64,000 nt of DNA, taken from assembly GCF_001632805.1 (NCBI RefSeq), contig NZ_CP007220.1, forward strand, positions 2,790,001 to 2,854,000, in the 5' to 3' direction. Of the stretch, positions 48,314 through 49,831 are shown one piece after another (the stretch's first letter is position 1; each line of letters begins with the position of its first letter). This DNA comes from Mycobacteroides chelonae CCUG 47445 (GTDB lineage: Bacteria > Actinomycetota > Actinomycetes > Mycobacteriales > Mycobacteriaceae). Under the pieces are notes generated by a model. It was given only the letters and a program-made list of their open reading frames with translations. It had not been told where the DNA came from and searched no databases. The translations under genes and the position numbers were made by a program.

Positions 48314-49593
48314 CGACGATCGTGATCTCCGCGTATGGCACCCGCGGAGACGTCGCACCGCTGACCGGGCTGGGAACTCGACTGCGCGACAGCCTATCTG
48401 CGCATGTGGTCATTGCCGCGCAACATCCCTACGCACAGCTGGTGCGCGCCTCTGGCCTGGAATTTCGGCCGTTGCCCGGTGATACCGAGACAGCAACGCG
48501 GGACTCCCAACACGGTCAGGCACTCGTGGACGGCGCCCGGATGCGCCCTTCGGGCGCGGCTCTCGCTGAGATGCGCGCCGGACTTGTGGGAGTCGGCGAG
48601 GCGATGGCCAGCACCGCGCACGATGCCGATCTCCTGCTGGCAGAGGGCCCGGTGGGCACTCTGCTGGGGTATCACGTTGCCGAGGCCCTGGGCATACCCA
48701 GCGCAGGACTTGCACTCCAACCAGCTTGCCCCACTACAGAATTTGCACCCCCACCGCTCACCATCCGTTCGTTCGGCGGGTACGGGAATCGGTTGGTATG
48801 GCGCCTTGCCCAGTCGGGTGAACGGATCTACACCCCGCTCATCAACGATCTGCGCCACCACCTCGGACTTGCCCCCGCGTCGCGGCGTCGATATCAGGGG
48901 GTCCGAGCCAACAGCTGGCCCATCGTGCACGGATACAGCCGGCATGTCGTCACACGTCCCCGTGATTGGCGCGATCACTGGCACCAGACCGGCTACTGGT
49001 GGCCTGCCAGTGACGAAACCTGGCTACCGCCAACAGAGCTGGACGAATTTCTGAAGAAGGGACCCGCTCCCGTCTTTCTCGGTTTCGGCAGTACCGCCAC
49101 ATCCCGGGGGCCAGAACTCTCGGAGATCATTGCCGCCGCGACACATGCCGCCGGGGTCCGAGCGGTCGTGCAACGCGGATGGGCCGGACTTGCCGGTCTG
49201 GGCAATGACATCCTCACCATCGACGATGTTCCGCACGCCTGGCTGTTTCCGCGAATGGCCGCTGTCGTCCACCACTGCGGCGCCGGCACCGCCGCAGCCG
49301 CACTGCGCGCCGGTGTCCCCTCGGTTCCCGTGCCCGGCATCATGGACCAACCCTTCTGGGCCGCACGGCTGTCTCAAGCCGGTGCAGCCACCAGTCCGCT
49401 ACCGCGCGTGTCGCTTCGAGCCGACGAGCTCTCGGCATCGATTACGCAGGCGATTACTGAATCACGGTATCGCCAAGAAGCCCAACGTCTCTCGCGACTG
49501 ATTAACGATGAGGACGGTATCGGGTCAGCGGTGATGATCATCGCTGCGATGTTGGACGCCACAACGATGAAAGGTGCACTTCATGGCTACTGA
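48310..49593 (+). CDS. GT1 family (UGT/MGT-like) glycosyltransferase
   Basis: 427 residues, GT-B fold. The N-terminal YGTRGDVAPLTGLGTRL is typical of mycobacterial GPL/sterol/macrolide glycosyltransferases. The donor motif VHHCGAGTAAAALRAGVPSVPVPGIMDQPFWA is intact in the C-terminal half. Acceptors can be GPL lipopeptide, sterol or macrolide drugs. Translationally coupled to TetR (4-bp overlap) and to the c-subunit gene (11-bp overlap). No other GPL gene is nearby, so a detoxification role fits better than GPL synthesis here. Confidence 0.85.
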   Translation: MTTIVISAYGTRGDVAPLTGLGTRLRDSLSAHVVIAAQHPYAQLVRASGLEFRPLPGDTETATRDSQHGQALVDGARMRPSGAALAEMRAGLVGVGEAMASTAHDADLLLAEGPVGTLLGYHVAEALGIPSAGLALQPACPTTEFAPPPLTIRSFGGYGNRLVWRLAQSGERIYTPLINDLRHHLGLAPASRRRYQGVRANSWPIVHGYSRHVVTRPRDWRDHWHQTGYWWPASDETWLPPTELDEFLKKGPAPVFLGFGSTATSRGPELSEIIAAATHAAGVRAVVQRGWAGLAGLGNDILTIDDVPHAWLFPRMAAVVHHCGAGTAAAALRAGVPSVPVPGIMDQPFWAARLSQAGAATSPLPRVSLRADELSASITQAITESRYRQEAQRLSRLINDEDGIGSAVMIIAAMLDATTMKGALHGY

Positions 49594-49831
49594 TCTACTC
49601 ATGGGCAACGCACTACTGGCCGGAGCGATAACGCTCGCGGGCGGCGCGATCGGCGCCGGTATCGGTGACGGCATGGCTGGAGCACAGCTCATTGCCGGAG
49701 TGGCGCGCCAGCCTGAATCTCAGAACCGTCTATTCACACCATTTTTCATTACCGTGAGCCTCGTGGAAGCCACCTTTTTCATCAACGTGGCGTTCATGGC
49801 ACTCTTCGTATTTGCCACCCCCGGCGGGTAG
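49583..49831 (+). CDS. F-type ATP synthase c-subunit paralogue, isolated from the atp operon
   Basis: 82 residues, two-helix hairpin, nearly the full length of mycobacterial AtpE. Helix 1 keeps GGAIGAGIGDG (Asp 29), the loop keeps ARQPESQNRLF, and helix 2 keeps the proton-carrying Glu 62 in SLVEATFFINVAF. Against M. tuberculosis AtpE, A63 becomes Thr 64, Y64 becomes Phe 65 and G58 becomes Ser 59, all around the bedaquiline site. ATG 49583 has AAAGG 8 bases upstream. The gene is the third of the TetR operon; no other ATP synthase gene is present. Confidence 0.9.
   Translation: MATDLLMGNALLAGAITLAGGAIGAGIGDGMAGAQLIAGVARQPESQNRLFTPFFITVSLVEATFFINVAFMALFVFATPGG

Follow-up and report, generated by a model that had tools for sequence, protein, structure and literature searches.

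A conserved TetR-glycosyltransferase-AtpE2 cassette, probably inducible, encodes a second ATP synthase c subunit in Mycobacteroides chelonae

A 64,000-nucleotide stretch of the Mycobacteroides chelonae CCUG 47445 genome (contig NZ_CP007220.1, positions 2,790,001 to 2,854,000; hereafter the window, whose coordinates are used for its features) contains a three-gene operon in the order TetR repressor, GT1-type glycosyltransferase (GT), and AtpE2, an alternative c subunit of F-type ATP synthase. The TetR-family regulator (47690-48313, forward strand, 207 amino acids) matches the TetR_N helix-turn-helix domain PF00440 at 45.4 bits against a cut-off of 24, and the GT (48310-49593, forward strand, 427 amino acids), of the EryCIII/sterol-GT/GtfB-like type, matches PF06722 at 58.3 bits against a cut-off of 31.7. 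AtpE2 (49583-49831, forward strand) is an open reading frame of 82 amino acids that passes the cut-offs of PF00137 (42.4 bits; cut-off 24) and of the NCBIfam model PRK05880 (129.6 bits; cut-off 120). The start of the GT gene overlaps the TetR stop by 4 nucleotides (ATGA), its end overlaps the AtpE2 start by 11 nucleotides, and AAAGG at 49570-49574, 8 nucleotides before the AtpE2 start, is a possible ribosome-binding site. An initial annotation of this DNA had described an isolated, AtpE-like protein of 82 residues outside any atp operon; the protein and its place outside the atp operon are borne out, but the gene is not isolated, because the two overlaps make it the third gene of the operon.

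In a profile search of the genome, a single contig of 5,029,817 bases, PF00137 is matched twice at E ≤ 0.001. The canonical atpE lies at 1419947-1420186, flanked by atpB and atpF, so that AtpE2 is not the sole copy, as the initial annotation had allowed it might be; an alignment of the two proteins, which that annotation had proposed, gives 71% identity. The AtpE2 gene has the GT gene and a metallopeptidase gene as neighbors, a position between atpB and atpF being usual for a c subunit gene rather than defining. AtpE2 shares with canonical mycobacterial AtpE its length, its passes of PRK05880 and PF00137, the Gly-rich helix 1 (AGGAIGAGIGDG), and the residues corresponding to Asp28 (D28) and Glu61 (E61) of Mycobacterium tuberculosis, and differs in lying outside the atp operon beside TetR-GT and in being altered at positions 33, 34, 58, 63, 64, and 68. 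By its PF00137 match and its helix and Glu features it is an F-type c subunit, predicted to assemble into a ring. Compared with M. tuberculosis AtpE, whose numbering is used throughout on an alignment anchored at the invariant FIN motif, its changes include G58S, A63T, Y64F, L68V, N33A, A34Q, A45S, I11L, and I16T, among others. The retained helix, Asp, and Glu and the changes at 58, 63, and 64 agree with the initial annotation, to which L68V and the others are additions. None of these nine AtpE2 residues is found in 43 canonical rows of the genus set (16 distinct sequences, with the own-genome locus included three times).

Direct reading of the sequence ahead of the operon reveals a putative operator and promoter (47665-47698, forward strand) made up of the tandem palindromes TGACCGATCGGTCT (47665-47678) and AGACCATGCGGTCT (47685-47698). 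The TetR start codon sits within the second palindrome, and TAATTT at 47678-47683 ends 7 nucleotides ahead of the TetR ATG, fitting what we take to be the -10 consensus and the leaderless promoter spacing of mycobacteria, with a transcript from 47690. The palindrome motif is nearly identical in four aligned Mycobacteroides loci. Among 23 TetR upstream regions, belonging to 22 cassettes with AtpE or AtpE2 and to one locus without (L110), 15 carry a GACC type of motif, five carry a GATC type at the same place, and three (L048, L092, and L098) have palindromes farther upstream; the GACC type spans mycobacteria, Gordonia, and Tsukamurella. No second operator copy was found in the genome, where the motif occurs once at up to three mismatches. 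Palindromes lying over both the promoter and the TetR start suggest an autorepressed operon.

The solved structures in the PDB closest to the window GT are a sterol 3-beta-glucosyltransferase and GtfB. Across 15 aligned cassette GTs, D14, GAGT at 324-327, and D346 are invariant; GAGT is presumably the donor site, with the roles of D14 and D346 likewise assumed. The enzyme belongs to the same GT1 superfamily as the rifamycin-inactivating Rgt and the macrolide-inactivating Mgt and OleI. Its top NCBIfam model is Rgt (NF000354), yet at 126.3 bits against a cut-off of 800 it is no member of that family, and it scores 22.3 bits against a cut-off of 700 for the macrolide-inactivating Mgt (NF033129). 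The Rgt, MGT, and Mgt models are matched by all 15 aligned cassette GTs and the OleI model by 11 of them.

The cassette recurs across genera. Surroundings were read at 35 AtpE loci outside atp operons in numbered genomes, which are not a random sample, and at 24 of them an intact AtpE2 lies beside TetR and GT. A truncated AtpE2 adjoins TetR-GT at one locus (L105), a TetR without GT adjoins AtpE at two (L098 and L176), and a MerR-TipAS regulator adjoins AtpE2 at three (L146, L152, and L102, the last split by an insertion). Apart from these 35 stand named duplicates of numbered genomes, L037 (no such neighbor), and L084 (a broken copy), as well as second copies in the genus set (G037, G044, G062, G099, G119, G144, and G164) and in the wider set (G260, G304, G323, G342, G372, G402, G434, G446, G452, G495, G504, G509, G522, G533, and G560, and also G572); for G416, G440, G475, and G542 the best match alone was read, and it is the operon copy. 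Named carriers include Mycobacteroides sp. CBMA 271, Mycolicibacterium peregrinum DSM 43271, M. arosiense, Tsukamurella ocularis, and Tsukamurella sp. 1534. Linkage persists across gene orders, which include TetR-GT-AtpE2, TetR-GT-AtpE2-GT, and, in a Tsukamurella, a divergent arrangement. A GT survey of 198 genomes of the genus set, scoring at most eight candidates per genome, found that all nine GTs at least 56% identical to the window GT adjoin AtpE2; nine of 19 further matches also lie in cassettes, either as second GTs or as a less similar GT, one of them in the cassette with the truncated AtpE2.

A MerR-TipAS regulator of the TipAL type, whose TipAS part is an antibiotic-recognition domain and which is absent from the window cassette, takes the place of TetR-GT upstream of AtpE2 at three loci (L146:6823-7856; L152:6048-7143, equal to L043:5184-6279; and L102:4753-7651). 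In Mycobacterium G454 and Gordonia G562 it lies immediately ahead of AtpE2, and the two regulators are 65% identical; in G013 (L102) the insertion of a transposase-like gene, by look, interrupts it. The idea that the regulator partners AtpE2 exclusively was rejected, since it adjoins AtpE2 in only one of four cases in the genus sample. Relatives of this regulator occur near a gene that we take to have an alpha/beta-hydrolase-like fold in G191 (L181) and G014 (L182) and near a gene that looks P450-like in G028 (L180); the G014 locus has a broken TetR-GT pair nearby as well. In G566, an orphan AtpE has a different TetR upstream.

Further loci show the cassette in other states or settings. Decayed-looking forms were seen in G120 (L105:4500-6800), with TetR-GT and the truncated AtpE2, and in G140 (L110), with a TetR 60% identical to that of the window, one GT at 44%, and no AtpE2. 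TetR-GT pairs without AtpE2 occur at L107, L109, L111, L112, and L113 of Mycobacteroides-type genomes, near long genes that are presumably nonribosomal peptide synthetase-like. A class I tRNA synthetase (W/Y) gene is divergent from the orphan AtpE2 of G363 (L149:6537-8063), and TrpS-like genes, by look, lie near several Mycolicibacterium-type cassettes (L036, L093, L094, and L096). A plasmid-borne AtpE2 was considered and rejected, the single plasmid record matched being a canonical atp operon on a Tsukamurella record; L115 (NZ_LR134452.1), Tsukamurella 'plasmid 10', carries the canonical atp operon and murA and may be a chromosome piece. Another Tsukamurella plasmid carries a GT, with no AtpE annotated within the stretch viewed.

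Purifying selection on AtpE2 is strong. When the window is compared with three Mycobacteroides-type genomes, the ratio of nonsynonymous to synonymous substitution rates (dN/dS) is 0.008-0.033 for AtpE2, compared with 0.10-0.13 for TetR and 0.13-0.19 for the GT, and these low values against three relatives disfavor AtpE2 as a decayed copy. The initial annotation had named inactivation in relatives as a point that would count against it, and this does not apply cleanly: three relatives keep the gene nearly unchanged, although two others are without it and in a more distant genome it is truncated. Over 23 loci, pairwise distances correlate at r = 0.94 for TetR and GT, 0.66 for TetR and AtpE2, and 0.59 for GT and AtpE2, with none of 2000 permutations reaching the observed value for any pair, although shared ancestry contributes to r. 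In a tree of 77 rows and 80 columns, few columns for so many rows and with the bootstrap not settled, one group (support 100/99), separate from canonical copies, holds 16 AtpE2s that come from several genera and of which 12 are cassette-linked, and a less supported group (86/84) of 14 rows holds eight cassette, four orphan, and two canonical sequences. This tree is compatible with one or more origins of AtpE2 alike.

The segment 47633-49814 is missing in the close relative G088, whose flanks are 94.3% and 95.7% identical to those of the window and are separated by 23 base pairs. Because the final atpE2 codons persist, nearly unchanged, at the right edge of this empty site, loss of the cassette in G088 appears likelier than original absence. 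The same segment is also missing in G050. Beside the cassette, the window carries genes for a transglutaminase, a circularly permuted ATP-grasp/Alpha-E protein, and a DUF2126 amidoligase (50850-57856, reverse strand). On its other side is a variable site, where the window has two genes without a Pfam match (44659-46370) and G050 has a polyketide synthase and a carrier protein by Pfam, as does CBMA 271 by look. A link between the cassette and these polyketide genes was dropped because they lie past the neighboring gene and the corresponding place in the window holds different genes.

AtpE2 proteins differ from canonical ones at inhibitor-contact positions. Positions 58, 63, 64, and 68 are bedaquiline contacts in simulations (PMC9516385, with numbering offset by 4), and PMC6541270 reports D28N and A63V as clinical resistance variants. 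Residue counts leave out L084, L085, L103, and L105 as broken, unrelated, or of canonical type; the percentages and the enrichment test also leave out canonical rows without the FVFATP ending. On this basis 26 of 27 distinct AtpE2s are altered from the canonical state at one or more of positions 28, 58, 63, 64, and 68, and 20 of 27 are altered at D28 or A63. D28N occurs in 8/27 and A63V in 3/27, whereas D28N is present in one of 35 distinct canonical sequences of the wider family. Positions 58, 63, and 64 are invariant in those 35 sequences and altered in 52-59% of AtpE2s; helix-1 positions 8, 12, 14, and 16 are altered in 52-78%. AtpE2 is thus a second, selected copy of a target that is altered at the drug site, as replacement-target resistance calls for.

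The conserved AtpE2 cassette, probably inducible, is the central finding. Evidence bearing on its regulation by a drug consists of the operator-like palindromes and the TetR or MerR-TipAS neighbors. Adding the TetR-GT-AtpE2 operon itself, its cross-genus recurrence, purifying selection, and the contact-position changes, all read at the level of sequence, we lean slightly toward a ligand-controlled resistance cassette directed against natural inhibitors of the ATP synthase c-ring, with induction, the GT acceptor, and resistance inferred. TetR would hold the operon repressed until bound by a hydrophobic toxin, for which venturicidin- or oligomycin-like macrolides are candidates. The GT would glycosylate and inactivate the toxin, while AtpE2, made in amount, would replace canonical subunits to give a ring that binds the toxin poorly. 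Such a drug-triggered rotor exchange, in which the GT disarms the poison and a second c subunit rebuilds the ring so that the poison cannot hold it, is proposed tentatively and given somewhat less than even credence. The least secure step is that AtpE2 would form a ring of its own, or one in which it dominates, instead of a mixed ring that stays sensitive.

Several observations weigh against a resistance cassette of this kind. Five of the 35 loci (L100, L103, L149, L154, and L155) have no TetR, GT, or MerR-TipAS neighbor, among them L103 (G032), which resembles a canonical-type duplicate, and L100, which adjoins a divergent gene with an IclR_C domain. Ten of the 28 GT matches belong to TetR-GT pairs that lack AtpE2, and in one of these ten the GT is broken. 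Contact positions are not significantly enriched among changes over the whole protein (4 of 16 changed positions are contacts, p = 0.40, tested on 55 canonical-invariant positions of which 11 are contacts), so that the argument from the target rests on invariance in canonical sequences against change in AtpE2. Besides the window GT, the genome has six PF06722 genes, five of which were scanned as a control; four match Rgt at 91-108 bits, nearly as high as the 126 bits of the window GT, and the fifth matches MGT, a macrolide-GT model. Since other GTs of the genome score similarly and the Rgt matches all fall far below the 800-bit cut-off, the family models do not prove antibiotic inactivation, and the window GT as a certified antibiotic-inactivating enzyme was rejected as unproven; an antibiotic-inactivating role for it rests on the TetR and target context. 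Cassette species are also reported to be bedaquiline-susceptible, with minimum inhibitory concentrations (MICs) of 0.015 µg/ml for M. peregrinum and 0.062 µg/ml for M. chelonae in a survey of rapid growers (PMC5817190); these are species-level values from strains that need not be those sequenced here, and they give no sign of basal bedaquiline resistance in carriers. Finally, resistant atpE alleles on a multicopy plasmid left the bedaquiline MIC of M. abscessus unraised (PMC10269753). Mixed rings are therefore a weak route to resistance, and for replacement AtpE2 would have to make up the whole ring or most of it.

The interpretation in the initial annotation is borne out in part: its bedaquiline focus is the improbable side, whereas its paralogue with changes at bedaquiline-contact positions stands and is plausible as an alternative subunit. 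AtpE2 as a bedaquiline-resistance determinant as such is very improbable, even with G58S, A63T, Y64F, and L68V at contact positions. Bedaquiline is a synthetic and recent drug, and it is unlikely to have been the selecting one because the cassette species are reported as susceptible. The plasmid result with resistant alleles (PMC10269753) argues the same way, and conservation of the TetR-GT-AtpE2 operon favors a switchable response to a natural toxin over a bedaquiline role. AtpE naturally altered at residue 63 is found elsewhere, as A63M in M. xenopi, M. shimoidei, M. novocastrense, and M. flavescens, and A63M is linked to high bedaquiline MICs in M. xenopi and M. flavescens (PMC5817190). In that group the altered atpE was found by sequencing the gene itself, whereas AtpE2 accompanies a normal copy as an accessory paralogue, and its residue 63 is T (V, I, or S in relatives) rather than M. 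The atpE primers of PMC5817190 appear to sit in flanking atp genes, so that AtpE2 would have gone unseen there.

AtpE2 sequences have probably already entered work on predicting bedaquiline resistance. In PMC6541270, AtpE differences among 23 susceptible species were taken as 'non-resistant'. Seven of eight such variants named in its text (I11L, N33A, A34Q, A45S, G58S, A63T, and L68V) are AtpE2 residues, and these seven occur in none of the 43 canonical genus rows; the eighth, L15T, is neither in AtpE2 nor in those rows. Of the seven, N33A, G58S, A63T, and L68V are the four that the model of that paper misclassified. We infer that a paralogue probably entered its training alignment.

Three further explanations differ in what AtpE2 would do. 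Stress such as low proton-motive force, an uncoupler, or pH could call up AtpE2 to alter ring size or coupling while the GT remodels envelope lipids. The altered helix-1 positions 8, 12, 14, and 16 could change ring packing, sterol glucosyltransferases are among the PDB relatives of the GT, and other GT1 genes of the genome score alike; this energetic role nevertheless seems unlikely, since the regulators, MerR-TipAS included, are of drug-sensor type, patchy presence and loss in a close relative fit an accessory trait, and the canonical-invariant positions 58, 63, and 64 are altered in more than half of AtpE2s. It is quite unlikely that TetR-GT detoxifies something unrelated to ATP synthase with AtpE2 as a passenger paralogue: linkage is retained in several genera, AtpE2 shows the lowest dN/dS, it is separately paired with MerR-TipAS and with another TetR, and both tree groups of AtpE2 are cassette-linked. 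A passenger would nonetheless be consistent with the TetR-GT pairs that exist without AtpE2, the GT models that name no substrate, and the five examined AtpE2 loci that stand alone.

In the third explanation, AtpE2 rings without a stator would act as a decoy, taking up inhibitor within the membrane while the GT clears it. This sidesteps the dominance problem, and an isolated mycobacterial c-ring is stated to bind bedaquiline (PMC7438494). A decoy should retain its binding residues, however, and nearly all distinct AtpE2s alter at least one of the five, which makes it decidedly improbable.

Resistance by an additional, insensitive target is a general principle, and the cassette resembles it: a spare copy of a known drug target carries changes at the drug site and is linked to a modifying enzyme and a regulator. 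No report of such resistance for the ATP synthase rotor was found in searches of the open-licence literature, nor was the AtpE2 cassette found in open-licence papers on paralogous atpE, on ATP synthase self-resistance or target duplication, or on GT or TetR genes with atpE. Bedaquiline and its successors, which are in use or on trial against non-tuberculous mycobacteria, act on ATP synthase. In some genomes of these bacteria, a second target that already exists and may be switchable could matter if an inducer were present, and primers set in flanking atp genes would miss it; AtpE2 sequences may also have leaked into resistance prediction. If the ligand-controlled cassette against c-ring inhibitors is real, AtpE paralogues with TetR-GT and, separately, with MerR-TipAS would mark a recurring and unrecognized resistance strategy, and the TetR and TipAS sensors would offer a way to find new antibiotics that act on the c-ring. 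The cassette suggests that soil actinobacteria meet natural c-ring inhibitors often enough to retain a dedicated cassette.
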